A stretch of 37,715 bases of DNA. Origin: a virus. The translations under genes were made by a program, and so were the position numbers. Shown in pieces: positions 7,797-37,715 of the stretch (position 1 is its first letter; each line of letters opens with the position of its first letter). The notes beneath the pieces are model-generated. The model saw only the letters and a list, made by a program, of their open reading frames with translations. It was not told the DNA's origin and did not search any database. Location: IMG/VR virus record IMGVR_UViG_3300043015_001455, positions 1 to 37,715 of that record. One strand, written 5' to 3'.

Positions 7797-9050
7797 ATGG
7801 CTGGATTTACAAAACTATTTGATTCGATTTTAGACTCTTCTGTATGGCAGGAGTCGAAGGAGGTTAAGCTTGTCTGGATCACGATGCTCGCTATGGCTGA
7901 CCGGCAGGGAGTAGTTGAGGCTGCGATACCTGGGCTTGCTAACCGGGCAGGGGTAACGATCAAGGAATGCGAAGATGCGGTTGAAACATTCCTCTCTCCT
8001 GATCCCTACTCGCGAACGACAGAATACGAGGGGCGAAGGATTGAAGCAGTAGATGGAGGATGGCGGCTTTTGAATCACGAAAAGTTCCGCGAGAAGCTGA
8101 GCAAGGCCGAACGGCGAGCCTACAAAACGGAATGGGAACGGAAGAAACGAGAAAGGGAAAAGGCTTGTGGACAGAATGTGGACAGTCCGTGGACTGAATT
8201 GGACGTTGTGGACACAGTACAGAAGCAGAGTACAGAAGCAGAAGCAGAGTCTTTAAATCGAAAATCAAAAAATGGGGAAAACGACGACGACATTCGTACG
8301 TCTACTGAGCAACCGGAAGAATTGTTGTCGTCTCCCCTTTTGTCTATTTTTAAGAAGATAGGCTTTGAGGCAGGGATACCGGAAAGCTTTTGCATGGAAC
8401 TCGCTAATCAGGCTGAAGAGAAAGGCGAAAAGATAAGCTCACCGGGAGCCTATCTCGGCGCAGCATGGGCCAACAGGACGATCGAAAGCAAGAAATCGAC
8501 TCAGGACAGCGGAAACAGCAAAAACGCCTCAGAATCGAAATCAGGGGCAAAGCGGGAGGTATGGCAGATTGAGAAGGATATTGAGCGATTCAAGGCCGAA
8601 CGGTTGGCTATCCAGAAAGATCCGGCTAAGCGAATCGCGGCAACCGGGCAGATTGAAACGAAGGAGGAACACCGGGAACGCTTGGAATCTGAATGGATGG
8701 AATACCTGCGATCAGCGGCGGCAGAATTTGAGGAGAAACTGCAACCGGACTGGCAGGAGTATCAAAAGGCTCTGGAAGAGGACCGGAAGAATCTGGCATC
8801 CACCGGCATCGGTTCCCCGGACCTGGTAGACGATGAAGGCTACAGGCTGGAACGATTGGCCGGAATGTTTCCGAAGGATGTTGCGGAGTTTGAGCGATGG
8901 TCGAGGGATTTCAAGAAAGAACCCTGGATTGATCCCGGCGCGCTAACTTCCGAAGCGAAAGCAGAATTGCAGATTTTGAAGGAATCTTTGGAGCGAATGG
9001 AGAAAGAGCGGAAAGAGGCGATGCTAAAAGAGAACACACAACCCTATTGA
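7797..9050 (+). CDS. Phage replication initiator / replisome organizer
   Basis: 417 residues. The N-terminal ~115 residues have the pattern of phage replisome-organizer winged helices: 'FTKLFDSILDSSVWQE', 'VKLVWITMLAMADRQGVVEA', 'GLANRAGV', then 'LLNHEKFREKLSKAERRAY'. A low-complexity linker (~120-175) follows, then a helical, strongly charged C-terminal region likely to contact the host helicase loader or helicase. In lambda, protein O binds iterons in its own gene; here a GTGGACA iteron array lies in exactly this gene's linker (8166-8214). The phage lacks a DNA polymerase, which supports a recruit-the-host strategy. The gene is preceded by AAAAAGG and the palindrome described separately. 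Confidence 0.75.
   Translation: MAGFTKLFDSILDSSVWQESKEVKLVWITMLAMADRQGVVEAAIPGLANRAGVTIKECEDAVETFLSPDPYSRTTEYEGRRIEAVDGGWRLLNHEKFREKLSKAERRAYKTEWERKKREREKACGQNVDSPWTELDVVDTVQKQSTEAEAESLNRKSKNGENDDDIRTSTEQPEELLSSPLLSIFKKIGFEAGIPESFCMELANQAEEKGEKISSPGAYLGAAWANRTIESKKSTQDSGNSKNASESKSGAKREVWQIEKDIERFKAERLAIQKDPAKRIAATGQIETKEEHRERLESEWMEYLRSAAAEFEEKLQPDWQEYQKALEEDRKNLASTGIGSPDLVDDEGYRLERLAGMFPKDVAEFERWSRDFKKEPWIDPGALTSEAKAELQILKESLERMEKERKEAMLKENTQPY
8166..8282. other. Putative replication origin (iterons plus AT-rich stretch) inside the initiator gene
   Basis: GTGGAC cores begin at 8167, 8178, 8189 and 8208, with a degenerate TTGGAC at 8199, so the spacing is about one DNA turn. A perfect 13-bp tandem repeat AGTACAGAAGCAG follows (8216-8228 and 8229-8241) with an AAGCAG remainder, then an A/T-rich stretch (8251-8282). 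This order of iterons followed by an easily melted region resembles oriLambda inside gene O. The protein is low in complexity here, as expected where DNA function dominates. Confidence 0.6.
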
Positions 9051-13653: not shown

Positions 13654-14066
13654 CACCCTACGAAAAAGCACTGGCGGCGCATCTATTGAGCGCGTGGAAT
13701 ACTGAGGAATCCGACGAAAGTGACCTGCTTGAAGATATTTACGATCATATTCAAAACGGGATTGTGATTTCAACGGAAAGGCTGTTCCTCCTCGCTAGGC
13801 CGGTGAACTCGAAAAGCGATCACTACCTCTTCGATTACCCGTCGATAGGTTTCAAAGATCCGGATTGCTGGCATATCTACCTTGCATCCGGATCACTCCC
13901 CGACATTTTCAACGCGCTTCCCTATCCCCTCCCGCTAGTTTCATACGTCAGAAAAAACCGCTTGCATTTCCAAGATATGAAAAAGATGGGGTTGAAGGTC
14001 AACTCTTCAACCTTTTCTTTTCATGGGCGGAAAACAGAAACTAGCGAAAGCTCAGCAAAGGGCTAA
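13650..14066 (+). CDS. GNAT-like (acyltransferase-like) protein after terL
   Basis: 138 residues from the ATG overlapping the terL stop. The segment 'CWHIYLASGSLPDIFNALPYPLPLVSYVRKNRLHFQDMKKMG' (read in parts) resembles the end of the small acyltransferase-like proteins found between terminase and portal in many T7-like phages (hydrophobic strand, then N/R-x-x-x-L-x-x-MKKMG helix). The acetyl-CoA-binding loop is not evident, so enzymatic activity is doubtful. Its 3' end contains a terminator-like hairpin (13990-14021) and overlaps the next gene by 44 bases. The final ~25 residues may therefore be an extension past the functional domain. Confidence 0.5.
   Translation: MTPYEKALAAHLLSAWNTEESDESDLLEDIYDHIQNGIVISTERLFLLARPVNSKSDHYLFDYPSIGFKDPDCWHIYLASGSLPDIFNALPYPLPLVSYVRKNRLHFQDMKKMGLKVNSSTFSFHGRKTETSESSAKG
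13961..13992 (+). repeat. Copy A of a 32-bp repeated element
   Basis: CTTGCA (13961-13966) plus ATATGAAAAAGATGGGGT (13975-13992), with the same spacing as copy B at 17803-17834. The 18-bp part is identical in both. Here it lies inside coding DNA and just before a terminator-like hairpin. It may be a promoter or processing element, or a duplicated piece of this gene. Confidence 0.6.
13990..14021 (+). terminator. Intrinsic terminator-like hairpin between terL block and portal block
   Basis: GGTTGAAG (13990-13997) pairs perfectly with CTTCAACC (14005-14012) across a seven-base loop, followed by TTTTCTTTT. The next ATG (14023) is directly after the T-run. It could end or attenuate transcription from upstream, so portal-region expression may need readthrough or its own promoter. 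Confidence 0.65.
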
Positions 14067-17788: not shown

Positions 17789-17955
17789 CGTGCAAAAAAA
17801 GACTTGCAATCGCGGAATATGAAAAAGATGGGGTAAGTAGTTCTTCAAGGCCCCAAAGAATGGGATAACCGACGAAGGCAACGCCAACAAGCGAGGCCCC
17901 AACTCGGGACAACCAAAGCGGTGGATTCAATTCAACCTCTTAAACATTCTTTACA
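17789..17955 (+). promoter_or_regulatory. Capsid gene leader, with copy B of the repeated element
   Basis: This 167-base stretch between the terminator and the capsid ATG is among the longest non-coding regions of the genome. It starts A-rich, then carries CTTGCAATC (17803-17811) and ATATGAAAAAGATGGGGT (17817-17834), the latter identical to copy A at 13975. GGGG near 17830 could pair with CCCC near 17850 or 17895, each within an AGGCCCCA. A promoter with a structured leader is plausible but not proven. No Shine-Dalgarno sequence precedes the ATG. Confidence 0.45.
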
Positions 17956-18876
17956 ATGGCTCTATCAGTAGCACACTCAATTCCCGAAGAATTCCGACGC
18001 GAATTCTACACGAATCTCGAACATGAGATTCAACAGGTAAACGGCAAATTCGCGGATCGCGTCAAAGTCGATACCTTTGAAGGCAAGGAGAACATTTACG
18101 GCTCTCTTGAACCGCGCACTTTTAAGCGGCGCACTGGACGACTCCAGCAGTCTGATCCGACCGAAGCGGAAATCCACAATCGGAAAATGGTCAAAGTGCC
18201 GTTTTACGATCAAGCGATCTTCGACAAGTGGGATAACAACTTCCTCGGCAAGCTCAAGCTCCCCGATTCGGAAACGATCCAGGCGACGAAATACGCTTAC
18301 AATCGACTCATTGACGAGGAGGTTTGCAAGGCGGCAACGGCAACAGTCTATGGAGGTGAAGAGCCCTACGTAACTGCGATTGATCTTCCTTCGACTCAAC
18401 AGGTCGCGGTAGGGGTCGGGGTTGCCAATTCCGGAATGAATCCTGATAAGCTCATTGCAGCGATGCAGATTTTTGAAGAAAATGATTTCGACTGCAATGA
18501 ACAGGAAATCATTCTTGCCCTGAATCCAGAATCGAAGGCGCAACTGATGGCTTACGTCGAGGCTGGCACAAATGATACATGGGCGGCGATGATTGCGGCC
18601 TGGTTGAATGGGACCAGCAAGACGCTTTTCGGCTTCACGCCGGTTCTCACGAATCGTCTGGAAGTAGCAGCGTCGGGCAACGTCCGTTCTAATCTTGCCT
18701 GGGTGAAGAATCAGGGAATCTACATGGAACCGGGTTCGCTCGAAGTTCACATGGACGTTCTTCCGCAACAGCAACACGCGCTTCAAATCTCGGCCTATGC
18801 AACTCTCGGGTTCATGCGTCGTCAGGAAAAGGCCGTTGTCGAGATCTTCTGCGACGAAGATTACACCCCTGCTTAA
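17956..18876 (+). CDS. Major capsid protein
   Basis: 306 residues, directly after the scaffold. The length and pattern fit the podovirus capsid families: an N-terminal helix (IPEEFRREFYTNLEHEIQQ), 'RVKVDTFEGKENIYG' (extended loop), 'VKVPFYDQAIFDKWD', 'LALNPESKAQLMAYV' and 'FTPVLTNRLEV' near the spine/A-domain, and a C-terminal 'YATLGFMRRQEKAVVEIFC', typical of HK97-fold proteins that end in a strand. It forms the head shell. It is the first gene of its unit, with a long leader and no SD, so strong expression would have to come from another signal. Confidence 0.82.
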   Translation: MALSVAHSIPEEFRREFYTNLEHEIQQVNGKFADRVKVDTFEGKENIYGSLEPRTFKRRTGRLQQSDPTEAEIHNRKMVKVPFYDQAIFDKWDNNFLGKLKLPDSETIQATKYAYNRLIDEEVCKAATATVYGGEEPYVTAIDLPSTQQVAVGVGVANSGMNPDKLIAAMQIFEENDFDCNEQEIILALNPESKAQLMAYVEAGTNDTWAAMIAAWLNGTSKTLFGFTPVLTNRLEVAASGNVRSNLAWVKNQGIYMEPGSLEVHMDVLPQQQHALQISAYATLGFMRRQEKAVVEIFCDEDYTPA

Positions 18877-18900: not shown

Positions 18901-19383
18901 ATGGCTACAGCAGATACAGCGGAATATACCGCACAAAATTCAACGGCTCGGGATGCAAATCCCTCAATGCGTCCGTTGCAACTGGAACTCAAGGTTGCCC
19001 GTTACGGGGTTATCACAATCGAAGCCGACTTGTCGGATGACGCTGGCGATGATATTCGCCTTGGGTCGCTCGGTTGTAACGGCGTGATCTTTCCGGAACA
19101 TTGCCGACTTGTCGGATTGTCCGGATCTGGAACAGGCTCATTTACCTTGGAAAAGGTTGAGGCTGACGGAACCGTTACTGCTCTTACCGGAGTGGCAACG
19201 CTCGGCGGAACTGACGGGACTTCCGTTCCGTTCGCACGAAAAACCGGGGCTTACACTGGCGGTGCATTCCTTAGCACAGACACGCTCCAGCTGACCGTCA
19301 CAACTGATGGGGCAGGAACTGCCGTCGTTGCTGGCGACACGCTTGAGCTGACTTTGGCTTACACGGCTGAACACTGCAAGTAA
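18901..19383 (+). CDS. Putative head decoration or structural protein
   Basis: 160 residues, predicted all-beta and rich in Gly, Thr and Ala (DLSDDAGDDIRLGSLGCNG, GTVTALTGVATLGGTDG, TLELTLAYTAEH). It has a good AAAGGA ribosome site, and lies directly after the capsid gene and before a terminator. This is the usual place for a decoration or head-fibre protein. No clear family. Confidence 0.6.
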   Translation: MATADTAEYTAQNSTARDANPSMRPLQLELKVARYGVITIEADLSDDAGDDIRLGSLGCNGVIFPEHCRLVGLSGSGTGSFTLEKVEADGTVTALTGVATLGGTDGTSVPFARKTGAYTGGAFLSTDTLQLTVTTDGAGTAVVAGDTLELTLAYTAEHCK

Positions 19384-19392
19384 TCCTTACAG

Positions 19393-19433
19393 CCTCCCCA
19401 TCAGCCTAGCGGTTGGTGGGGAGGTCTTTTTTT
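19393..19433 (+). terminator. Intrinsic terminator after the capsid operon
   Basis: A 14-bp stem (19393-19406 with 19411-19424), including two G-U pairs and a TAGC tetraloop, followed by TCTTTTTTT. It is the strongest terminator in the window and sits four bases before the tRNA gene. Confidence 0.92.
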
Positions 19434-19437
19434 AAAT

Positions 19438-19510
19438 CGCGAGGTGGAGCAGTTGGTAGCTCGTTTGACTCATAATCAGAAGGTCACGGGTTCAAGTCCC
19501 GTTCTCGCAA
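19438..19510 (+). tRNA. tRNA with CAU anticodon, initiator-like
   Basis: 73 bases folding as a full cloverleaf: acceptor CGCGAGG/TCTCGCA, D-stem GAGC/GCTC, anticodon stem TTTGA/TCAGA around loop CTCATAA (anticodon CAT), T-stem ACGGG/CCCGT, discriminator A. CCA is not encoded. Two bacterial initiator features are present: a C1-A72 mismatch and an A11-U24 pair. The three-GC-pair anticodon stem of initiators is absent; of positions 29-31/39-41 only G30-C40 is kept. The body closely resembles E. coli tRNA-fMet (TGGAGCAG, GGTAGCTCG, GAAGGTC). The alternative is elongator tRNA-Met or a lysidine tRNA-Ile. Confidence 0.93.
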
Positions 19511-19520
19511 CTTTTTCAAG

Positions 19521-20135
19521 ATGACCGAAACTGATATAGCGAACATGGCTCTTTCCCGCTTAGGCGAGAAACGGATTTCGGCTATATCGGAAAACTCTCC
19601 TTCGGCTATTTCTTGCCGAACTCATTACGAGACAGTGAGAGATTCTTTACTCCGCGCTCACCCGTGGAACTTTGCGGCGGCTCGGGCCGAACTTTCGGCA
19701 ACGGATACGCCAGCATTCAAGTGGGCGTATGCCTACACTCTCCCGGCTGACTTCCTTCGCCTTTCGACCTTCAACGGAATTGAAGCGGCGATGGCAACGG
19801 CTGACTACCGGATCGAGGGCGGCGAACTACTCACCGATGAGGAAACGGCGAAAATCACTTACGTTCGCCAAGTCACTGATCCCACACAATTTGATTCCCT
19901 GTTTGTCGAGGTAATCGTTTTCCGCTTGGCTTCTGCCATTGCGATGGACGTTACAAGCGAGCCATCGAAGCGGGACGAAATGGAGCAACTTGCGGCTTAC
20001 CGGCTTTCGAGTGCTTCCTTCGTGGACGCAAACGAGAACAGGGCGCGCGTATCCTCCCCATTGTCAGAAATGACGGCAAGGGTTCGCGGAATCCCGCAAG
20101 GCTTAGTTTATCCCTATGATACTCAAAATCCATGA
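19521..20135 (+). CDS. Tail tubular protein A (T7 gp11-like)
   Basis: 204 residues with the conserved gp11 pattern: 'DIANMALSRLGEKRISAISE', 'YETVRDSLLRAHPWNFAAARAEL', 'FKWAYAYTLPADFLRL', 'KITYVRQVTD', then a helical C terminus (FRLASAIAMDV, EMEQLAAYRLSSASFVD). It forms the ring joining the portal to the tail tube. The next gene begins with a paralog of this whole protein, with an ATGA overlap. It follows the tRNA by ten bases and has no SD sequence. Confidence 0.88.
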   Translation: MTETDIANMALSRLGEKRISAISENSPSAISCRTHYETVRDSLLRAHPWNFAAARAELSATDTPAFKWAYAYTLPADFLRLSTFNGIEAAMATADYRIEGGELLTDEETAKITYVRQVTDPTQFDSLFVEVIVFRLASAIAMDVTSEPSKRDEMEQLAAYRLSSASFVDANENRARVSSPLSEMTARVRGIPQGLVYPYDTQNP

Positions 20136-22840
20136 GCGTGACGAACATAGCGAACCGCGCTCTTTCCCTGCTTGGCGAACCTCCCATTTCGTCATTGGAT
20201 GAAGGCACGACGGCGGCTCGGGCTATCAACCTGCAATATGAGCCGGTCAGGGATTCACTCTTGCGCGCTCATCCCTGGGACTTCGCAATCGAGCGGGCCG
20301 AACTTTCCCGCGAAGTAGACGGTCCAGCGTTTGAATGGTCTTACTCTTTCATTCTTCCGGCTGACTGCTTGCGCGTCGTTACCTTCAACGAGGTAGATGC
20401 GGTTCTCTGCAATAAGTCTTTCGCCATCGAAGGCAACCGACTCGTTACGAATTCCGGAGCGGCGCAAATTTCCTACGTGAAGAAAGTCACCGATACCGGG
20501 CTTTTTGATTCCCTGTTTACCGATGTTTTATGCTATCGGCTCGGGGCGGCGATTGGCGGAATCATCACGGGGGATACTCGTAGGGGTGATGAACTGGAGA
20601 GCAAGGCGCGGTCAAAGCTGAAACAAGCGCAATTCGTAGACGCCAATACCGGGCATTCGGCTATCTCTCCTCTTTCCGGCAACGGATCGGCACGGATGGC
20701 AAGGCCGGTCATAGGTGATTACGCTCATGTGAAAACCGCAACCGGGGCGCAAGGCGATACCGGGCTTTCGGCTTTTGAGTTAGCAGTTCAAAACGGATTT
20801 ACCGGAACGCTTTCGGAATGGCTCACTTCTCTGGAAGGTGCAGACGGGGCTGATGGCGCAACGGGACCGGCTGGACCTACAGGACCGGCAGGGGCAGACG
20901 GCGCAGACGGAGCCACCGGAGCCACCGGACCACAAGGACCGGCTGGAAACGATGGAGCGGACGGGGCCAATGGAGCGGACGGGGCGGATGGGGCTAGTTC
21001 TTACTCCTACATTGCTTACGCTTCTGATTCATCTGGCGCGGATTTCGACACGGCTCCAGGGGCGGGACTTGATTACGTTGCATTTCTCACGACTACAACG
21101 GAAATCCCTTCACCCGCTTCCGGTGATTTCACCGGATTATGGAAACTCTACGTAGGTCCGCAAGGGGCATCGGGGGCCGATGGAACGGATGGGGCTGACG
21201 GAACCGATGGAGCGGACGGAACAATCTGGCACGAAGGGAGCGGCGCGCCATCAGACGGAACGGGAGTGAATGGAGATTTCTATCTCGATTCTGCGGCTGA
21301 TGCCTGGTATGGTCCGAAGGCAGCGGGAACATGGACGGGGACAGGTCCGAACTCGTTGCAGGGTCCAGCGGGGGCTACTGGAGCCACCGGAGCCACTGGA
21401 TCGGTTGGAGCCACTGGTGCCACTGGCGCGGCAGGAGCGGACGGGGACAATGCTTACATATACGTGGCCTATGCTTCGGACGCATCCGGAACAGATTTTA
21501 CTCTTACCTTTGATGCCTCCCTTGATTATATTGCATTTCTTTCTTCTGCTACGGAAATTGCTACTCCCGTAGCGGTGGATTTCGTGGGACTATGGAAGAA
21601 CTACAAGGGAGCCACCGGAGCCACCGGAGCCACTGGACCAACTGGACCGGCTGGATCAATAGCAGGTATTACAGCATGGGCTGATGCAACGACCTATGCT
21701 GTAAATGACTTGGTTTCAAATGAAGGAAGTTCTTACTATTGCATTTCCGCGCATACCTCCTCGGGAAGTGATGAGCCGGGGGTTGGGACTTGGGCGAGCA
21801 AATGGGCGGTTTTAGCGGCAGCAGGGCAAACAGGCGCAAGCGGGGCAGACGGTTCTGTATGGTCCTCTGGATCTGGTCCTCCATCTTCGGGGGATCTAAC
21901 TGAGGGTGACTACTGGCTAGACGACTCGGCGAAAGCCTATTATGGACCGAAGCAGCCCGCGCCAACCTACTGGAGCGGAACAGGTCCAAACTCATTAGTT
22001 GGAGCCACCGGAGCCACCGGAGCCACTGGAGCCACCGGAGCCACCGGACCGGCAGGAGCCACCGGAGCCACCGGACCGGCTGGAGCGGACGGTGTAGACG
22101 GCTTTACTCCTCCCGGCTTTATTCGCGGATTTGCATTCTCAAACGATACGGACGCAGATCACGATATTGAAATCGGGGCGGGGACTTGTCGCGACGACGG
22201 GGATACGGACAACATGGCATTGGCTTCGGCCATCACAAAGCAGATAGACGCAAGTTGGAGCGTAGGCGATAACGCGGGCGGGCTCGATACCGGGTCCGTT
22301 GCCAGTGATACGACGTATTTCCTTTGGGCCATCAAGCGAAGCGATACCAGCGTTGTAGACGCGCTTTTTTCAACGTCAGCAACCTCGCCAACAATGCCGA
22401 CAAGCTACGATCTAAAACGCTTGATCGGCGCGGTTGTCACGGATGGAAGCGCGAACATCATCGGGTTCCATATGCACGGGGTTGCGGATCATATTGAGGT
22501 CTACTGGAACAGTATCATCATGGACGTCAATAAGACGGTTGGAACGACGGGGACGCTGGAGACGCTTACCGTTCCCTCTGGAATACCCGTGAAAGCCGAA
22601 TTCCGGATAGGAAAAGCGGCGGCTCCCAATACGGCAGTCCTAGCAACGTCAGGACTTGGAAATGATGACGCTCTAGGAGGAACCTCTTACAACGTTGAAC
22701 CTAGCGGGGAACTGGTGACGCAATACGGAACGCGAATGGTTATGACTGCCTGGACGAATTCAAGCGGGCAGATCCGGCTACGAGCCACCGGAAACACGGG
22801 AACGGCGGTTCATACCTATGGCTGGAGTTTTTACCGATGA
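20132..22840 (+). CDS. Tail tubular A paralog fused to a collagen-like tail fibre
   Basis: 902 residues. Residues 1-~195 are a second gp11-like domain (IANRALSLLGEPPISS, PVRDSLLRAHPWDFAIERAEL, FILPADCLRVVTF). Residues ~212-234 (SAFELAVQNGFTGTLSEWL) are a common phage fibre linker. Gly-x-y collagen-like blocks (from 236 onward) are interleaved with two duplicated modules ('YIAYASDSSG ... GLWKLYVG'/'YVAYASDASG ... GLWKNYKG'; 'GSGAPSDGTGVNGDFYLD'/'GSGPPSSGDLTEGDYWLD') and one CBM5/12-like module (ITAWADATTYAVNDLVSNEG). From ~655 a beta-rich C-terminal domain probably forms the receptor-binding tip. This covalently joins the tail ring to the fibre, where T7 uses separate proteins. Confidence 0.82.
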   Translation: MSVTNIANRALSLLGEPPISSLDEGTTAARAINLQYEPVRDSLLRAHPWDFAIERAELSREVDGPAFEWSYSFILPADCLRVVTFNEVDAVLCNKSFAIEGNRLVTNSGAAQISYVKKVTDTGLFDSLFTDVLCYRLGAAIGGIITGDTRRGDELESKARSKLKQAQFVDANTGHSAISPLSGNGSARMARPVIGDYAHVKTATGAQGDTGLSAFELAVQNGFTGTLSEWLTSLEGADGADGATGPAGPTGPAGADGADGATGATGPQGPAGNDGADGANGADGADGASSYSYIAYASDSSGADFDTAPGAGLDYVAFLTTTTEIPSPASGDFTGLWKLYVGPQGASGADGTDGADGTDGADGTIWHEGSGAPSDGTGVNGDFYLDSAADAWYGPKAAGTWTGTGPNSLQGPAGATGATGATGSVGATGATGAAGADGDNAYIYVAYASDASGTDFTLTFDASLDYIAFLSSATEIATPVAVDFVGLWKNYKGATGATGATGPTGPAGSIAGITAWADATTYAVNDLVSNEGSSYYCISAHTSSGSDEPGVGTWASKWAVLAAAGQTGASGADGSVWSSGSGPPSSGDLTEGDYWLDDSAKAYYGPKQPAPTYWSGTGPNSLVGATGATGATGATGATGPAGATGATGPAGADGVDGFTPPGFIRGFAFSNDTDADHDIEIGAGTCRDDGDTDNMALASAITKQIDASWSVGDNAGGLDTGSVASDTTYFLWAIKRSDTSVVDALFSTSATSPTMPTSYDLKRLIGAVVTDGSANIIGFHMHGVADHIEVYWNSIIMDVNKTVGTTGTLETLTVPSGIPVKAEFRIGKAAAPNTAVLATSGLGNDDALGGTSYNVEPSGELVTQYGTRMVMTAWTNSSGQIRLRATGNTGTAVHTYGWSFYR
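22001..22081 (+). repeat. GGAGCCACC-type 9-bp repeats in the fibre gene
   Basis: Tandem GGAGCCACC/GGAGCCACT units coding Gly-Ala-Thr triplets; similar shorter runs occur near 20920, 21373-21430 and 21609-21650. The 9-bp unit keeps frame, so slippage would change fibre length without breaking the gene. These are collagen-like coding repeats, not a CRISPR array. Confidence 0.8.
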
Positions 22841-28956: not shown

Positions 28957-31900
28957 ATGCCAATATCAGAACTAGAGCTTAACAAGGTTCTTCGGGTCGC
29001 AAAAGAGAACCCGGATGACTTGGAATTGCAGGAAGCTGCAATCACGTATTACGATACCTATGAGCGTGAGAAACCGCAAAGGATCAACAAGACACTAGGG
29101 TTTTTCCGGGATCGAGAAACGCACGGGCTAACAGGTGAAACGCTTAACGAAATCAACAGGATACAAAAGCACGATCCGATGGCGCGGTATCGGCTTTTGA
29201 ATGACCGATACTTGAAAGAAGTGGTGGGGGTTGATGAAAAACTTTTAAGGAACGCGGGAACCTCCACACGGGCGGCATACTCAGAAAAGGTATGGGGAAC
29301 GAAAATCACGGATGAAGGGCAATTCTTCCAGCGGATCGCGGACGATGTAGATACCGGGGACGCTCTTGAAAAATACGGAAGGGCGGCAGGATTGCGGGGC
29401 GTTCCGCCTGTTCAAGCGATGGCAGAGCTTCCGGAGGACATTGCGAACTCTGAGGTTTTCCGGGCGAAAGAGTTTGAATTCCGCCAGCAATACGAAAGGG
29501 CGGTAAGGCAGGGAAGCGAAATGATCGGGCCGCACGTTGATCTTGCGCGCAAATTTGCTGCGGACCTGAAAACGTCGATGGGGATTGAAACGGAAGGCGG
29601 CGAAAAGCGGGACGATTCGGATTTCGTCAATACGGTTCTGGACCTTCCGAAAGACAGGCGGGCGGCTTTCATTGCTTCGGTTGTCGAGATAGCAGGGGAA
29701 GGCGAGGACAAGAACATTTTTCAGAAGATGGCTGAACGGGTTGGCCGTTCTACGGGGATGATTTCAAACGGGGCAACGGATTTCTTCGCGCAAAAGTTGG
29801 AAGGAATACACGCGCTTGAACGGGCGATTATCAGAAACGGAAGCATTGAACTGCCGGAAGAGTTAGGTTTCGACACTCACGCGGCTCTACAGGGATCAGT
29901 GAAGCACCGAAAAGACTTTATCAATAGCCTTGATTCGGAGGATGGTCTTTTCACTACAGCTATCCCGGAAGAAGGCTCGGAGGAATGGAACGCTTTACCG
30001 GACGACGTACAAGCGAACCTTGAACAACTGAGCAGGGAGCGGGACGCTGTAATGCTACAGCACGAACTGGAGCAACTGGCTACGGGCGTGATTGATCCAT
30101 CACAGGGGGATTGGTGGCTAGACAAGGGATTGCTTGGCGTTTCCTCTTCGGTTCCTATCATGGTGGCAATGGCTACTCCTCTGGCTGGTCAGCTTGCAGT
30201 TACGTCAGCCTATCGGAACAATGAAAAAATGGATCTACTCCAGGCCAATCCTGGGATGAGCCTAAGCGATGCGGACACTATTGCCGGGTTTTCTTCCGTC
30301 CTGATGACGATGACGGAAAAATTTGAGCTTGGGGTGTTCAAGGGAAAGCTACCGCTTTTGAATGGTTGGTTGAATAAGGCAACGCTGACAACGAAATCAT
30401 TCGTTTCCCGTATGGGAGTCAGGGCGGTAGGGGGAGCGGCGATTGAGATTCCGCAAGAATTCGTTCAAGAGGTATCTACGCCACTATTTCAAGAATTGCT
30501 TTCCGCGCTGTCGTCCGATGTTCCAAGTGTTGATTGGGACGGGGTTCTTACTCCGTTTTTCTCTGATGAGAACATGAGCGAATTGATTCCTACCGTTGTG
30601 ATGATTTCGCTATTCGGTGCGGGGGTTGGAGCGTTACGCGATCACAAGAACGGGCGCGGACTGGTAGCGGACGCGGACGCTCTCCGCTTGGTAGGGATCA
30701 GCGAAGCGAAGGCAAACGAAATCCGGACACTCGCAAAGGCCGAAAAGTGGGACGAAGCGCAAGCACTTCTTCGGGAGGAATTCAAGCAGAGCGGGCGGGA
30801 TCAACAGAGCATGGCGGAAACGCGGGCGGAAATCGCGGAGAAAGTGGTAAAGCAGAAGCAGGAGCGAATGGAAACAATCCAGAAAGCGGAAACGCTGGAC
30901 TTGCTTCCTTCGATCCGGAGGACGGCGGAAGGCTATTCGCTGCAATTCAAGGACGGGACGGCAAGAGGTTTCGAGACTCACGGCGAGGCAATGGACGCGG
31001 CTTTTCAGGCGGCAAGCGATAGCTCTCTGCGACTCCATGAGGAAACTCGGAGCATCATGCGGAAATCTACCAGTAGAATGGAAACTGGCCGCGAGTTTGA
31101 TTTCATCTTTGAGACTCGGGAACTGAATGAAGCGCAAGCGATTGAAGAGGGACTTTCGACGAAGGAGGGCTTAGAGGACCGGCGCAAACAGGGGGAGGTT
31201 CTGGACGATCAGGAATTTGAAAAAGAGGGCGCACAAAAAGAGGACGATTTTCGTGCGCCTACTGAGGAGAGTATTGAGCAGGAATACGACGAAGCCTTTA
31301 CGGCGGCGGAACTTCATGCGCTGGAAGAGGGTGACAAAGACGTTATTTCCATCATCCTCGGGACAAACTCAACCTTTGGCGAGGAAATCCAAAAGACGAC
31401 GATTAGGCTCTTCAACGGTTACACTCCTTATACTGTTCTGGAGGAGAAAGTGGAAGGTGACGTTTCGGCGATGCTGAAAAAAGGAAAGCGGGATTGGCTC
31501 ATTAAATCGCTTCGGGAAGTGGAGGGACAACTAAACACCGGGAAACACGCCAGCCGATTGTTCATTGAAGGGCGGGCCGATGAGGATTTGACGCCGAACG
31601 ACATTCGAGAAGCGTTCTCACACTTGGCAATGTCCTACTTTGCGGGAAGATCCAGGCGCGGAGAGAGCGATATGCAGTCGCAAGAATTCCGCGATTGGGC
31701 GGCGAAGGTCATGCGGGGAAATCTCGGGGTGGCGATGGAATCCTACGGGCGATTTTTCAAAGCAGTCTGGAAGCGGGCGGCAAAGCTGAACAAACTCCGT
31801 AGAGAAGGCAAGCTGGATGCGGATCTTGAAAAGGCTCTGGCTCGATCTGTCGGATTCGGAGAACAGCAAGAATACGATTCTTCGGTGAAGAAGGCGCGGC

Positions 31901-34900
31901 AAGACTTCCTGGACGAACTGGACGAAGGCGGGGGTTTTGAAATGGAACCGGAGACGGCAAGCACGTTTGTGCCTACGGACGACGCTCCTTTCTCGATCAT
32001 TGAAAAGGGACCGGGCTTTGAGGCGTTCTCTATGCCTGACGGTCGCAAGCTGGAAGGACCGGCATCGTTCTCGATCATGGCGTTCCACGGGACTCCGCAC
32101 AAGGTGGACAAGTTCAGTCTTGGGAAGATCGGGACCGGCGAAGGGGCGCAGGCGTACGGATGGGGATTGTATTTTGCGGAAGATTTCAAAGTTGCCAAAA
32201 GCTACAGGGATGGACTTGCAGGGAAACGCTGGAGAAACGAAAACGGATTTCTCGCGGATCAAGTCGGACCAGTTGCTAGAAAGTTCATAAGGGAAGCGGA
32301 GGCTTTAGGGTATGACGCTAGGCAATCATTGAAGGATGCGGCGGAAGGAGCTGCATATTTTGTTTCTCGCGGCGAAAACGTAGAGTCAAATCAATCTGTT
32401 GTAGATGCGGCGAATGAAGCGTTGCCTCTGTTTGAGAGTGCAGAAATAACAGAAACCGGAGCAGTCTACACCGTAGAACTGGACGCGAATCAAGATGACT
32501 TTCTCGATTGGGATAAGCCGTTGAGCGAGCAGAGTGAGAAGGTTCAAAGGGCATTGACTGGACTTTCTGAGGATTACAGCGAAAACTCAGACGAATATGA
32601 CGCGGCAGAATTAGGCCAGACGATTTATTCTAGGGTTCGTTCAATGCTTGTTCAGGGGCAACTGAACATTGACGTTTTTGATTCACGCTACAAAGAGGAC
32701 GCAAAAGACGAAAACGAGCGTTTAGCAGACGTTCTAAACGTGGAAGGTATCAAAGGAATCCGCTACCTGGACGGCAACAGCAGAGCGGACGGCGAAGGCT
32801 CATACAACTACGTGATTTTCGATGAATCCCTAGTCAAGATCCTCAAGGAGAACGGCGAGCCTTTGCAGGATGAGCGGGCGGAAATGCAACCGTCCTTCTC
32901 GATGATTTCTAAGAGCGGAGAATTTGACGACAGCTACCGGATTCAACACCAGCCTTCTTCCGAAGATGCTCGGCTCGACTCTCTTGCCGAACTAATGGGA
33001 GAGGATATTTACGGACCTAACGCATTGCAATACTACGGCGCGGGGCAGGATGGAGAAGCGGAAGCGGTGGAAATCTTCAAAAGAGTAAAGGGCAATCCGG
33101 AAGCCTCGGTTGAAATCTACAGGGTAGTTCCTGATTTTGTAGAAGAAATCAACCCTGGCGATTGGGTTACTATTTCAAAGACGGCTGCGGACGCGATGAA
33201 TGATCCTACTTTTGTGGGGGTGGACAATCAAGGGAATGAGCAAGGCGCAAAGATCATCAGCAAAGAGGTTAAAGCCAAAGAGATAGTTTGGCCGGGGGAT
33301 TCGCTTTTAGAACAGGGCTACGCTCCGGAAGGCTATTCTTTCTCGATGATCTCCAAGCAGGTTGATTCGGACTACCTTGCTGCGGTCGAGGCCGGGGATA
33401 TGGAGGCGGCGCAACGGATGGTCGATGAGGCGGCGAGGCGGGCGGGGGTAGGTAGCCCAAGAGCGGTGGACGATAAGGATATTCTTGATCGTGATTTATT
33501 TTGGAGGTTGGATAGTGCTAGGCAGGAATTGAATCCGGCATTCAAATCAACTTCACAAAATGACGATATTATAGAGGACGGGCTATCTACATGGCCAACC
33601 TTAGAGCGATTGCTGCATAATATCGCGTACGGGGACGCTGATTATTCGATGGGGAGTGTTGATATTGTTGCAATTCACGGTGAAGAAGTAGGCGTTGGGC
33701 AGGATGGGGAGCCAGTTATTATTCCAAACTCAGAGGCGGCGCGATTTAGGCACGAAAACCTAGCCGTGTATGGGGATACTCCGGTTTCAGACATGGCCGA
33801 TGCAGCAGAAGATGGTTTAACGATTCCTGATTTTCTTAGGTTCGGCTGGTCCCGCGTTGCTGAAATGCAAATGAGATTCGATCCCGTAACCTACGACTCG
33901 GACGGCAACGTGATTCCGCTCTCCAAGCGTTTCGATTCTTCGCGGGATGAGATTAGCTTCTCGATGATCTCAGTATCAAAACACCTTCGTGATGATCCTA
34001 GATTTGAAACTCTAAAGGCTGACGGACGTATTGAGACGGGCGTAGACATCGGGAGATTCATCGGGGATAACATTATCCTTCATGCTCCGGACAATGCCTT
34101 TGCTGGCGAAATAGATTTTGGTGACGGTAATGTGGTAGAAGGTAAAGGGGGGGTGTACTACCCGCTTGTATTCGCAGATGACAATTACTTTTGGGCATCG
34201 ACGCGGAACGCTGCAATGGGAATGGCGAAACTTCTGAACGAAAACTCAGCAAAGAACGGCGGGAGGATTCGCATGGGTCTGGTTTCTTCGCCTGTCGAAA
34301 AACTATTTTCTTCTTCGACGCTATCAATTGGAACCGTTACATTTTTCGAGGCATTAGCAAAAAACCCTAGAAAGAGCGGAGTAACACGTACGAAACTCAA
34401 TGCAATGATAGCAAGAGCCTCCAGAGCGGAGGCGGTTGTAAATGGGAAGGCCAAAGGTTTTTCTGCGAGGCTAAGGGTTGGAGATGGGCTGGACGCGAAC
34501 CTGGTGAACATCCGGAAACTACTCGATCCCGATAAATCTATTTTCGCGGTGCGCAAGGCTTTCGTGGAATCCCTAGCGTCTCAGCTTGCCGAAGAAACAA
34601 AAGGAAATGATAATCACGCTTCCTATATTGCGGAAACATTAACCAGGGAAGGCAACAGATTTGCAAAGGGTGCTATTAAATCTGGTAAATTATCTAAAGC
34701 GGCAATCCTTCAAGGACTAGGGGATCTTTTTACAGAGCCATTTCTCAAAGACTTTCAGGAACACGGGAACGGCAAAGTTTACGCAATCATTGAAGTTGAT
34801 GGAGAAGTCGAGGCTATTCCATCAGACAGGCATGAAAGTTACCCGTTTGCAATTTCACCGAAAGACAAGGGGAACAAGGTAAAGGTGAACGTTCTGCGCG

Positions 34901-37715
34901 AAGCGTTCGACTGGCAAACAGTAGTCGGCAAAGAAGGCGGCGAGAAAACGCTACCATCCGAAAGGAAGAAACTTTTTCCAACATCCGGGATTTCCGGCGC
35001 AGGTCTTGAGGTTCTCCCGCTCCCGAAAGATAGTCCTGGAGCACCACTTTCTTTCTCGATCCTCAAAAACGCAGACACGCGCATTGCGTCCGCATTCTCC
35101 CCCGTCAAACCGAAACCGGAAGCAAAGCGCAAGATTGTCCAGGAGGTTCAAAGGCGAGTAGCGGAAGCGGAGCGGAAGTGGCAAACGATTCTCAACGCGA
35201 ACCGCTCAAACAAGGAAATCGAAGCGGAGCGCAAGAACCGGGAGGCGGATCTAATGGCGGATAAGCTCGATACGCTCTCTCCTTCGATGGTGGCGGCTCT
35301 GGAGGTTTCAAACGATCTGGATGACGAGGCGCAACGTCCGCTTCTCTCGCGGCTTCTCACGCGCAAGACTTACACGCGCAAGGACGGGAAGGTTGTCGGA
35401 TATTGGGGCGGGTCGATCAAAGCCAAGAGCAAGGCCAGTGACAACAGCCTAGCGGAATACGATGATATGCCCGATGGCTTACCGTCCTACGTGTTTGGCG
35501 GTGATATGTCACCGGATCAGGCGGCGGCAGAAAACGGCTTCGATTCCGTGGCGGATTTCTGGACGGCATTAGAGCGGGAAATCGAATCATTCCGCTCGGT
35601 CAAAGAGCAAAGCGCGGAAGCAACGGCGCAACTTCGCGAACTCGAAAAGGAAGCTCGGGACGAATCCCGCGAATGGGCGGCGGAACAACGGAAACTCAGG
35701 CGTGGGGTAGGATCGGACCGGCAAACGCTTATCGGCGCAATGCGAACACTGGACGCAATGATTTCCGCTCTTCCTCCGGAGGTTCGTGGCAAGATCGGCG
35801 GATATACCCGGTTGGCGCAATTCAAGGGGCCGGTTCCAATGATGGAGCATTTGGAGAAGAAAGCGGAAAAGGTTAAGCAGGTTCTGGAAACTTGGTTGGT
35901 AAAAGAGCAACGCAAGCGAGTCGATAAAGCACTTGAAAAAGCGAAGGTAAAAAAGACGGCTAAGGGAATCCCTAAGTCTGATCTTCCTGCCGATACTCTA
36001 AGTGAGTTACAAGCGATCAAGGAATACGCGGACCTCTCTAAGCTGGAATACGATGAGCAACTATCCGAACTCAGTGAGAGACTGGCGGAATCCGGAAGCG
36101 CGGCGGATACGGAGCGAATCACGGACGATATGGTGCGGCTTGTGAGCTTCGGACACATTGACGGGATGGATAGTGCGCAACTGGAATCCGTTGCCGACAA
36201 TCTGGAAACCCTGATAAAAACGGGGAAAACCATCAAACAGGTGATGGACGAGGAGCGGGCGGCAGAAGTCCAGCGTATTGTTGACTTCGTAAACGAGGAT
36301 GTTACCGGAGGAAAGGGGGAAATGCTCTCAAACGAAGCGAAGAAGAGAGCAAGGAAGCGAAAAGGATTGGGCGGGATCAAAGGCGGAATAGCGGGACAGC
36401 ACCGAAGGAATCTTTCCTGGGAATGGATTCTGAACGGATTGGCTCGGGAAAATACCGAAGTGGGAACGCTTCAAGGAAAGTCTACGAAAGAACTCTCTGA
36501 GATGGTTCACGTAGCAACCCACAAAGAGAAGAGGGCTAACCTGAAATCAGCGAGGGAATTCAAAGATTTTCTTTCCGAAGTATTCCAGGCCAAAGGCGTG
36601 AAGCTATCGCGTAAACTCGAAAAGCTAAGCGAGGAGATTGAAAAGACTGGGGTTTTCCGAATTGATTACGGACGAAAGGGAAAAACCACAAAGAAGGAGA
36701 TTCGCGCAACGGTGGTTGAATCCGTTCTTGTGGGCGGGGTAGATCCCGGCTCACTCGGCTTTGACGCTAAAGAGTGGAACCTTATCAAGCTGGCGTATCA
36801 AGAGCGATCACAGAAACAGAAGGGCAAAAAACTATCCCTTCCAGATAACGCAATTATCAGATACGAAGTTGAGAACCAGGGGCGGAAAGAAGAACTCGAT
36901 CTTTCACAGGACCAGGCGATTAATTTGACAATGCTTTACCGGCAAGAGGAGCTTCGCGAGTCCATGCAGGAAGAGGGATATAGCGATGAAACAATGGAGC
37001 AAATGGAGGCTTTTCTTTCCCCGCAAGCAAAAGAGATTCGGGAATGGTTGGCGGAATTCTACGATAGAAATCACGGGGAATTAAACAAGGTCTTCAAGGT
37101 GGAGAACGGCGCGAACCTTCCCAAGATTGAGAACTATTCGCCCGCGGTAAGAATGGCGCAAGGGACTGAAAAGGAAATGGAAATCAACGGGCAAGGCGGC
37201 TCTGCGATGACGACAACCCCTAGCTTTTTCATCAGTCGCGTAAAGAACTTCGCGCAAATGGATCAGCGAATCGGAGCGATGGAGATTTACTCCAGGCATT
37301 CCATGCAAAGTAATCACTACATCGCATGGGCTAAGCCGGTGAAGATCCTGCGGGGCGTATTCGGCAACGCGGATGTTAAGGGAAACATCAAGGCTTACCG
37401 GGGGGACGACCATCTAAAACTGGTGAACGAACGGATTGAATGGTTCGCGGACGGGGGGAACAGGGCGGCAGGACATTACGCATTCCTCTCTTCTCTCCGG
37501 AACACGTTCACCTTATCGGCTCTTTCTTGGAATATCTTCACTTCATTGAAACAGCTTACTTCTCTTCCGGCTTATATGTTCGATATGAGCGCGGCAGATT
37601 TCGCGACGTATTCAGCAAAGTTTGCGGCTGACATTCCGGGGAATATCAAATCCATGCTTGAAACGGAATACGTTAAGGCGCGCTTAGAAGAGGGCTACGA
37701 GCGCGACGTTATTTC
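28957..37715 (+). CDS. Giant polyvalent internal virion protein (gp16 position), 5' part; continues at 2-931
   Basis: 2,919 codons in this window; 3,173 residues after circular joining. N-terminal ~385 residues are helical. Hydrophobic stretches lie at ~391-419 and ~543-563, with an amphipathic segment between. ART-like cassette 1 (~1037-1305): FHGTPHK with His1044, GWGLYFAED with Tyr1072, ending SYNYVIFDES (Asn1284 where PARP-like enzymes have Glu). Cassette 2 (~1313-1460): EIYRVVP (Arg1389), GDWVTISK (Ser1407). Cassette 3 (~1461-1666): the helical hairpin VEAGDMEAAQRMVDEA without the usual HGT core, ending VTYDSDGNVIPLSKRF. Cassette 4 (~1667-2031) is unnamed. Then long helical regions and the C-terminal membrane-type part. 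Such polyvalent proteins carry effector domains injected with DNA. Confidence 0.85.
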   Translation, partial: MPISELELNKVLRVAKENPDDLELQEAAITYYDTYEREKPQRINKTLGFFRDRETHGLTGETLNEINRIQKHDPMARYRLLNDRYLKEVVGVDEKLLRNAGTSTRAAYSEKVWGTKITDEGQFFQRIADDVDTGDALEKYGRAAGLRGVPPVQAMAELPEDIANSEVFRAKEFEFRQQYERAVRQGSEMIGPHVDLARKFAADLKTSMGIETEGGEKRDDSDFVNTVLDLPKDRRAAFIASVVEIAGEGEDKNIFQKMAERVGRSTGMISNGATDFFAQKLEGIHALERAIIRNGSIELPEELGFDTHAALQGSVKHRKDFINSLDSEDGLFTTAIPEEGSEEWNALPDDVQANLEQLSRERDAVMLQHELEQLATGVIDPSQGDWWLDKGLLGVSSSVPIMVAMATPLAGQLAVTSAYRNNEKMDLLQANPGMSLSDADTIAGFSSVLMTMTEKFELGVFKGKLPLLNGWLNKATLTTKSFVSRMGVRAVGGAAIEIPQEFVQEVSTPLFQELLSALSSDVPSVDWDGVLTPFFSDENMSELIPTVVMISLFGAGVGALRDHKNGRGLVADADALRLVGISEAKANEIRTLAKAEKWDEAQALLREEFKQSGRDQQSMAETRAEIAEKVVKQKQERMETIQKAETLDLLPSIRRTAEGYSLQFKDGTARGFETHGEAMDAAFQAASDSSLRLHEETRSIMRKSTSRMETGREFDFIFETRELNEAQAIEEGLSTKEGLEDRRKQGEVLDDQEFEKEGAQKEDDFRAPTEESIEQEYDEAFTAAELHALEEGDKDVISIILGTNSTFGEEIQKTTIRLFNGYTPYTVLEEKVEGDVSAMLKKGKRDWLIKSLREVEGQLNTGKHASRLFIEGRADEDLTPNDIREAFSHLAMSYFAGRSRRGESDMQSQEFRDWAAKVMRGNLGVAMESYGRFFKAVWKRAAKLNKLRREGKLDADLEKALARSVGFGEQQEYDSSVKKARQDFLDELDEGGGFEMEPETASTFVPTDDAPFSIIEKGPGFEAFSMPDGRKLEGPASFSIMAFHGTPHKVDKFSLGKIGTGEGAQAYGWGLYFAEDFKVAKSYRDGLAGKRWRNENGFLADQVGPVARKFIREAEALGYDARQSLKDAAEGAAYFVSRGENVESNQSVVDAANEALPLFESAEITETGAVYTVELDANQDDFLDWDKPLSEQSEKVQRALTGLSEDYSENSDEYDAAELGQTIYSRVRSMLVQGQLNIDVFDSRYKEDAKDENERLADVLNVEGIKGIRYLDGNSRADGEGSYNYVIFDESLVKILKENGEPLQDERAEMQPSFSMISKSGEFDDSYRIQHQPSSEDARLDSLAELMGEDIYGPNALQYYGAGQDGEAEAVEIFKRVKGNPEASVEIYRVVPDFVEEINPGDWVTISKTAADAMNDPTFVGVDNQGNEQGAKIISKEVKAKEIVWPGDSLLEQGYAPEGYSFSMISKQVDSDYLAAVEAGDMEAAQRMVDEAARRAGVGSPRAVDDKDILDRDLFWRLDSARQELNPAFKSTSQNDDIIEDGLSTWPTLERLLHNIAYGDADYSMGSVDIVAIHGEEVGVGQDGEPVIIPNSEAARFRHENLAVYGDTPVSDMADAAEDGLTIPDFLRFGWSRVAEMQMRFDPVTYDSDGNVIPLSKRFDSSRDEISFSMISVSKHLRDDPRFETLKADGRIETGVDIGRFIGDNIILHAPDNAFAGEIDFGDGNVVEGKGGVYYPLVFADDNYFWASTRNAAMGMAKLLNENSAKNGGRIRMGLVSSPVEKLFSSSTLSIGTVTFFEALAKNPRKSGVTRTKLNAMIARASRAEAVVNGKAKGFSARLRVGDGLDANLVNIRKLLDPDKSIFAVRKAFVESLASQLAEETKGNDNHASYIAETLTREGNRFAKGAIKSGKLSKAAILQGLGDLFTEPFLKDFQEHGNGKVYAIIEVDGEVEAIPSDRHESYPFAISPKDKGNKVKVNVLREAFDWQTVVGKEGGEKTLPSERKKLFPTSGISGAGLEVLPLPKDSPGAPLSFSILKNADTRIASAFSPVKPKPEAKRKIVQEVQRRVAEAERKWQTILNANRSNKEIEAERKNREADLMADKLDTLSPSMVAALEVSNDLDDEAQRPLLSRLLTRKTYTRKDGKVVGYWGGSIKAKSKASDNSLAEYDDMPDGLPSYVFGGDMSPDQAAAENGFDSVADFWTALEREIESFRSVKEQSAEATAQLRELEKEARDESREWAAEQRKLRRGVGSDRQTLIGAMRTLDAMISALPPEVRGKIGGYTRLAQFKGPVPMMEHLEKKAEKVKQVLETWLVKEQRKRVDKALEKAKVKKTAKGIPKSDLPADTLSELQAIKEYADLSKLEYDEQLSELSERLAESGSAADTERITDDMVRLVSFGHIDGMDSAQLESVADNLETLIKTGKTIKQVMDEERAAEVQRIVDFVNEDVTGGKGEMLSNEAKKRARKRKGLGGIKGGIAGQHRRNLSWEWILNGLARENTEVGTLQGKSTKELSEMVHVATHKEKRANLKSAREFKDFLSEVFQAKGVKLSRKLEKLSEEIEKTGVFRIDYGRKGKTTKKEIRATVVESVLVGGVDPGSLGFDAKEWNLIKLAYQERSQKQKGKKLSLPDNAIIRYEVENQGRKEELDLSQDQAINLTMLYRQEELRESMQEEGYSDETMEQMEAFLSPQAKEIREWLAEFYDRNHGELNKVFKVENGANLPKIENYSPAVRMAQGTEKEMEINGQGGSAMTTTPSFFISRVKNFAQMDQRIGAMEIYSRHSMQSNHYIAWAKPVKILRGVFGNADVKGNIKAYRGDDHLKLVNERIEWFADGGNRAAGHYAFLSSLRNTFTLSALSWNIFTSLKQLTSLPAYMFDMSAADFATYSAKFAADIPGNIKSMLETEYVKARLEEGYERDVI
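31990..35064 (+). repeat. Recurring Phe-Ser boundary motif in the giant protein
   Basis: F-S-[I/M] occurs at residues 1012, 1024, 1038, 1314, 1462, 1668 and 2033. It falls at the start of ART cassette 1, between cassettes 1, 2, 3 and 4, and after cassette 4. Six of seven share the DNA TTCTCGAT; three share TTCTCGATGAT. I saw none in the N-terminal 1,000 residues. Either a protease-recognition or linker motif, or the traces of cassette exchange at shared DNA junctions. Confidence 0.8.
37548..37715. repeat. Right copy of contig-end overlap
   Basis: It matches bases 1-168 at 160 of 168 positions. The differences are mostly third-position changes; only ATG to CTT (codon 110-112) changes a residue, Met to Leu. 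The pattern is what would be expected from two coding variants of the same locus in a phage population. Confidence 0.85.

Follow-up and report, generated by a model that had tools for sequence, protein, structure and literature searches.

An initiator-like tRNA with an elongator-type anticodon arm in a podovirus-like phage

Initiator tRNAs are taken to carry three G-C pairs almost universally, and the role of these pairs was established with engineered mutants. Could a natural tRNA that keeps only the middle one of these pairs serve as an initiator? The question is raised by a tRNA of a phage genome recorded in IMG/VR, hereafter the window (the whole stretch of DNA analyzed, 37,715 bases), which is complete-looking and podovirus-like, with an imperfect 168-base repeat at both ends. 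Judging from its sequence and those of its relatives, the window tRNA most likely works like an initiator, as a new variant among the known phage initiator-like tRNAs.

Anatomy and genomic position of the tRNA

The observation of a tRNA at this locus was confirmed. ARAGORN called a tRNA-Met(CAU) at 19438-19511, and Rfam returned an RF00005 match of 61.9 bits over positions 19438-19510, with the C1/A72 pair flagged as nonstandard; by both programs it is the sole tRNA of the 37.7-kb genome (Table 1). Direct reading of the bases yielded an acceptor stem, CGCGAGG/TCTCGCA, in which a C1xA72 mismatch is followed by G2-C71, C3-G70, G4-C69, A5-U68, G6-C67 and G7oU66, a D stem (GAGC/GCTC) containing A11-U24, and an anticodon stem (TTTGA/TCAGA) composed of U27-A43, U28oG42, U29-A41, G30-C40 and A31-U39. 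The anticodon is CAU, and A73 is followed by CTTTTT. The original prediction had described an initiator-type acceptor end and D stem together with an anticodon stem in which only G30-C40 is left of the three initiator G-C pairs, and it was right at every base.

Table 1 Features of the tRNA locus in the window
Feature	Position	Strand	Evidence or remark
Initiator-like tRNA(CAU)	19438..19510	+	ARAGORN, Rfam, direct base reading
5' acceptor end CGCG (positions 1-4)	19438..19441	+	Conserved in the lineage except A1 in one form
3' acceptor end CGCAA (positions 69-73)	19506..19510	+	Identical in 8/8 forms
Anticodon arm 27-43, TTTGACTCATAATCAGA	19464..19480	+	94% identity to Bacteroidota elongator/Ile2 CAU arms
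Major capsid protein gene (PF19821)	17956..18876	+	Served as query for relatives
160-aa gene, no family match	18901..19383	+	Between capsid gene and terminator
Intrinsic terminator, 15-bp stem followed by a T run	19392..19433	+	Few nt 5' of tRNA
Tail tubular protein A gene	19521..20135	+	ATG 10 nt past tRNA, no Shine-Dalgarno

Like bacterial tRNA-fMet, the window tRNA has an unpaired 1:72 position (C1xA72), G2-C71, C3-G70, G4-C69, A11-U24, the CAU anticodon and A73, and its D arm is identical to that of some Bacteroidota initiators. Unlike tRNA-fMet, it is a phage gene, CCA is not encoded, and U29-A41 and A31-U39 replace G29-C41 and G31-C39. As the three consecutive G-C pairs (29-31/39-41) that define initiators are reduced to G30-C40, the tRNA cannot be filed as a canonical initiator. 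The window tRNA departs from elongator tRNA-Met, with a paired 1:72 position and Y11-R24, in having C1xA72 and A11-U24, and from tRNA-Ile2, with G1-C72, C4-G69 and C5-G68, in having C1xA72, G4-C69 and A5-U68. The sampled Bacteroidota CAU tRNAs with the latter three pairs are those that we take to be tRNA-Ile2.

The tRNA lies just past a strong terminator, whose stem (19392-19425) amounts to -29.7 kcal/mol including flanks. A terminator was present at the matching place in every relative read, and in all forms read the following gene has its ATG 10 to 13 nt beyond the 3' end of the tRNA. The order capsid, small gene, tail tubular protein A, tail tubular protein B is shared with HTVC010P-type Pelagibacter podoviruses, in which a small virion protein gene occupies the slot of the 160-aa gene; unlike the window, the stretches of those genomes that were read carry no tRNA between capsid and tail genes. 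A near DNA search found no match between named phages and 20 kb of the window. A role of the tRNA as an integration site (attP) was considered and ranked low, as the tRNA is complete and the proteins scanned, which covered part of the small ORFs, gave no integrase match.

Conservation in the phage lineage

The capsid and tail proteins served as queries to find relatives, whose tRNAs were called with ARAGORN. A CAU tRNA occupies the same slot in 24 related contigs, in seven further forms, eight including that of the window. Because it is the only tRNA in the window genome and in each of four other lineage records, it is no part of a codon-supply array.

Position 1:72 is unpaired in all eight forms (C.A in seven, A.A in one), and thus the loss of this mismatch in relatives, which had been named beforehand, together with a classification as elongator Met or Ile(CAU), as the finding that would speak against an initiator-like tRNA, was not observed among them. 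G2-C71, C3-G70, G4-C69, A72, A73, CAU and G30-C40 are also kept throughout, the end bearing the formylation determinants being the most conserved part of the tRNA. The D arm, anticodon arm and T stem have been exchanged or have diverged among the forms, and pairs 29:41 and 31:39 vary. A11-U24 occurs in only two of the eight forms, those of the window and of L003/L004; the other six have U11-A24. As A11-U24 is not a conserved feature, the lineage as a whole is not simply the keeper of a retained tRNA-fMet.

Across the eight forms, 98.1% of the cells were paired and 24 cells were compensatory, and neither value was reached in any of 500 shuffles. Because both pairing and compensatory changes exceed those of the shuffles, the RNA in this slot is under selection as a functional tRNA. 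On the capsid tree, the presence of the tRNA requires one change, and so does the 11:24 switch. In L013/L262 and in L251/L252, the same tRNA is found beside capsid proteins that are clearly different on the tree, suggesting that the tRNA slot recombines between phages.

The tRNA might also act as punctuation for RNA processing, its excision cutting the late transcript so that the tail mRNA begins about 10 nt before the AUG, with the tRNA as a by-product. Its place a few nucleotides past the terminator and 10 to 13 nt before an ATG devoid of a Shine-Dalgarno (SD) sequence agrees with this explanation. However, the tail gene does without a tRNA in L152/L265, L263, L264 and L177-L179, starting a few nucleotides past the terminator; L263-L265 are the relatives just outside the lineage. 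Punctuation would moreover require none of three features that the lineage retains, namely CAU, a 1:72 mismatch and compensatory changes in each arm, and we regard it as improbable. The apparent viability of close relatives without the tRNA (L263-L265 and L152) also counts against an initiator function.

Origin of the anticodon arm

The tRNA was compared segment by segment with cellular tRNAs of one phylum, Bacteroidota, a comparison that does not fix the host. The D arm showed up to 100% identity to cellular initiators, whereas the anticodon arm was of the same kind as those of the CAU elongator/Ile2 tRNAs of that phylum, with up to 94% identity. The window tRNA is thus chimeric in composition, combining initiator ends and D arm with an elongator-type anticodon arm. 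Its A-U/G-C/A-U stem is not the mere remnant of a decayed initiator stem, as it matches elongator/Ile2 CAU arms.

All initiators matched in 59 Bacteroidota genomes have G29G30G31. The sampled initiators of this phylum (L279-L308) mostly carry C1.U72 or U1.U72, not C1.A72, and 1:72 is a G1-C72 pair in every cellular CAU elongator sampled. The two-base D loop resembles that of Bacteroidota initiators, but as those sampled have U72 rather than A72 and the D loop of L003 has three bases, it does not support a host assignment. The letters at 1:72 of phage initiator-like tRNAs may hint at the host.

Could the tRNA be an elongator tRNA-Met or tRNA-Ile2(CAU) whose end resembles that of initiators by chance, or else a relic of integration at a host tRNA? 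The type of the anticodon arm and the Y11-R24 pair of six lineage forms speak for an elongator or Ile2. In contrast, 1:72 is unpaired in every form of the lineage versus G1-C72 in the cellular elongators, and the C4-G69 and C5-G68 pairs of Ile2 are missing. A relic is at odds with the presence of a whole tRNA, not only its 3' half, and with the failure to match an integrase among the scanned proteins. We consider these origins highly improbable.

The odd stem may have another reason. VapC toxins cut tRNA-fMet between the anticodon stem and loop, and BoVapC1 leaves elongator tRNA-Met intact (PMC8522696). An elongator-type arm might allow a spare initiator to escape VapC-like toxins that cut the host tRNA-fMet; this is compatible with an initiator function and would explain the stem. 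Consistent with such evasion, pair 31:39 adjoins the VapC cut site and is A-U instead of G-C in the window, the arm is close to elongator/Ile2 arms (94% identity in the window, 100% in the L268 tRNA described below), and changes in the anticodon loop, thought to evade nucleases, are frequent in phage tRNAs (PMC10264068). On the other hand, the anticodon loop CUCAUAA is common to cellular initiators and elongators, and where the anticodon itself is the target, phages are reported usually to do without a tRNA-fMet gene (PMC10264068). Furthermore, six other lineage forms have G31, and four of these have G31-C39, so that this stem is not a conserved trait of the lineage. Nuclease resistance thus seems a rather unlikely purpose.

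Occurrence in viral and cellular genomes

We sampled 120 IMG/VR loci with a pattern specifying the D arm and CAU, the acceptor and anticodon stems being left free. Among the 97 distinct tRNAs parsed from these loci, part of whose contigs may hold host DNA, 71 had no standard 1:72 pair and 96 had G30-C40, but just 28 had all three G-C pairs. ARAGORN models of the same loci showed an unpaired 1:72 in 77/104 CAU tRNAs with the initiator D arm versus 5/268 non-CAU tRNAs, and G30-C40 in 103/104 versus 193/268. As G30-C40 is common in those other tRNAs and in Bacteroidota CAU elongators as well, it is weak evidence by itself. The mismatches of phage initiator-like tRNAs vary (C.A, U.U, C.U, A.A and G.A).

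Named phages also carry initiator-like tRNAs annotated only as tRNA-Met, including Streptomyces phage Wakanda (C1.U72), Gordonia phage GMA2 (A1.C72) and Bacteroides LoVEphage (C1.A72). They share the A11-U24 D arm, CAU, the unpaired 1:72 and G30-C40 with the window tRNA. They differ from it in the outer G-C pairs and are usually located in tRNA arrays or elsewhere, and none of those read has the UA/GC/AU stem together with C1.A72. Phage initiator-like tRNAs are therefore common in viromes and an already-known kind of tRNA. These data suggest that initiator-type tRNAs are frequent in phages and are entered in databases under the plain label tRNA-Met, so that control of translation initiation by phages may be more widespread than has been supposed. 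In Janthinobacterium phage Donnerlittchen, a tRNA-Met directly follows the terminase gene.

The combination found in the window is rare. The initiator D arm with U29-A41/G30-C40/A31-U39 gave a single match in 84,980 species genomes, L268, and was present in five of 2.9 million viral contigs, of which only the near twin of the window has C1.A72. In these two collections, the stem, D arm and C1xA72 are thus combined only in the window lineage and in one unrelated phage contig. The latter, L268 (JAUIBH010000020.1, from a Bacteroidia MAG), has a tRNA at 2187-2260, between terminase-like and portal-like genes. It resembles the window tRNA in its C1.A72 mismatch, A11-U24, UA/GC/AU stem and location in a late structural region, and differs from it by U3oG70 in the acceptor stem. 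The Bacteroidia assembly that holds it has its own initiator with all three G-C pairs.

Matches in Pseudomonas phage Y6 and similar UNVERIFIED records were set aside, as they are probably host DNA; they have the full stem of three G-C pairs as well as CCA, and in Y6 a tRNA-Leu lies next to the match. In two IMG/VR phages, L021 (7532-7620, minus strand) and L110 (11554-11642, plus strand), a class II CAU tRNA, with a long variable arm, has a C1.A72 end, and thus an initiator-type end on a Leu/Ser-type body. It adjoins an ordinary initiator-like tRNA.

Proposed function

We propose that the phage encodes a late-expressed methionine tRNA of the initiator type, weaker than that of the host but working, that adds to the fMet-tRNA pool; we estimate the probability of this at somewhat under 60%. 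The tRNA would share a transcript with the tail genes owing to read-through at the late terminator, and the host would mature it by means of RNase P at the 5' end, trimming at the 3' end and CCA addition. Its acceptor end should allow methionylation and formylation and disfavor EF-Tu. It would then be delivered to the P site as fMet-tRNA, enlarging the initiator pool late in infection, and would be of greatest use when the host initiator is limiting. What is observed is a conserved RNA with a formylation-type acceptor end and a fixed place in the late region, from which we infer its expression, formylation and activity in initiation. The conservation of such a tRNA in the lineage suggests that the phage supplies its own translation starter.

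Methionylation relies on CAU and A73, both of which are present. Features of the acceptor end such as G2-C71 and C3-G70 are formylation determinants (PMC7949028). The best guide to the stem is the 3GC mutant of Escherichia coli (U29:A41/C30:G40/A31:U39), a laboratory construct that is aminoacylated, formylated and bound by IF2 yet inactive in initiation (PMC10486304). In a strain without metZWV, in which initiator is scarce, the mutant does initiate (PMC7949028). Like it, the window tRNA joins an initiator acceptor end to an elongator-type stem with the same 29:41 and 31:39 pairs. Unlike the 3GC mutant (PMC10486304) and the M1 C30-G40 variant (PMC11497404), it is natural, not engineered, and keeps G30-C40, the pair that counts most for acceptance in the P site. 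The importance attributed to the middle pair in the original prediction agrees with published work, G30 having been called "most crucial" (PMC7005279) and a C30-G40 swap having reduced translation 20-fold in vivo (PMC11497404). Because the stem of the window is that of the 3GC mutant with the middle pair kept, it would be expected to yield a formylated initiator that is weaker yet working.

When overexpressed, the 3GC mutant initiator causes 16S maturation defects and stronger lamotrigine toxicity (PMC10486304). It may therefore be asked whether the phage tRNA acts by interference; as a formylated initiator whose anticodon stem is altered, it could compete for IF2 or the 30S subunit and upset initiation or the maturation of ribosomes in the host. 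We find this very improbable, as the mutant lacks G30-C40, whereas the whole lineage keeps it, and as the tRNA is placed among late structural genes, when host takeover is already complete.

The absence of the three G-C pairs, the defining feature of initiators, remains a point against an initiator function, as does the lack of A11-U24 in six of eight forms. A11-U24 is a secondary formylation aid. It had also been proposed that the tRNA could shift start-site choice toward phage mRNAs. A dominant switch of this kind is disfavored, because loss of the outer G-C pairs is expected to weaken P-site selection while host initiator is abundant.

A general benefit to phage translation is plausible. 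SD 4-mers precede 12/36 starts of the phage genome (shuffled mean, 9.7) and 4/15 late genes, in line with the claim that several phage mRNAs have no SD, and 16/36 starts overlap the preceding gene. Reinitiation requires a formylated, P-site-binding initiator (PMC2268962), so that coupled starts in this SD-poor genome could profit from one. More tentatively, and with less confidence than in the proposal above, the lineage may have a private initiator defined by the formylation-type end, CAU and G30-C40 alone, an end that was moved onto different bodies and that initiates late, SD-poor phage translation. This natural, conserved series of phage tRNAs, in which the acceptor rules and the middle pair are kept while the outer pairs and D stem change, offers a test of what makes a minimal initiator.

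Other features of the genome

A plus-strand ORF at 28957-37713 encodes at least 2,918 aa and extends beyond the right end of the record, probably continuing at 1-931; another ORF, at 29-931, corresponds to the C-terminal portion of a phage family of 2,231 positions. The two ORFs probably join across the record ends. An alternative genetic code at the right end is not needed, as the region is one long plus-strand ORF. The early region encodes a 417-aa protein (7797-9050) with no match in Pfam or PHROGs. Upstream of the portal and capsid genes, a repeat (13952-13992 and 17794-17834) with TTGCA-like and TATGAA-like boxes likely represents phage promoters. A 902-aa protein with collagen repeats and a chitin-binding module (20132-22840) has a start resembling that of tail tubular protein A, and the repeats at 19623-19696 and 20234-20307 point to a duplicated N-terminal domain.
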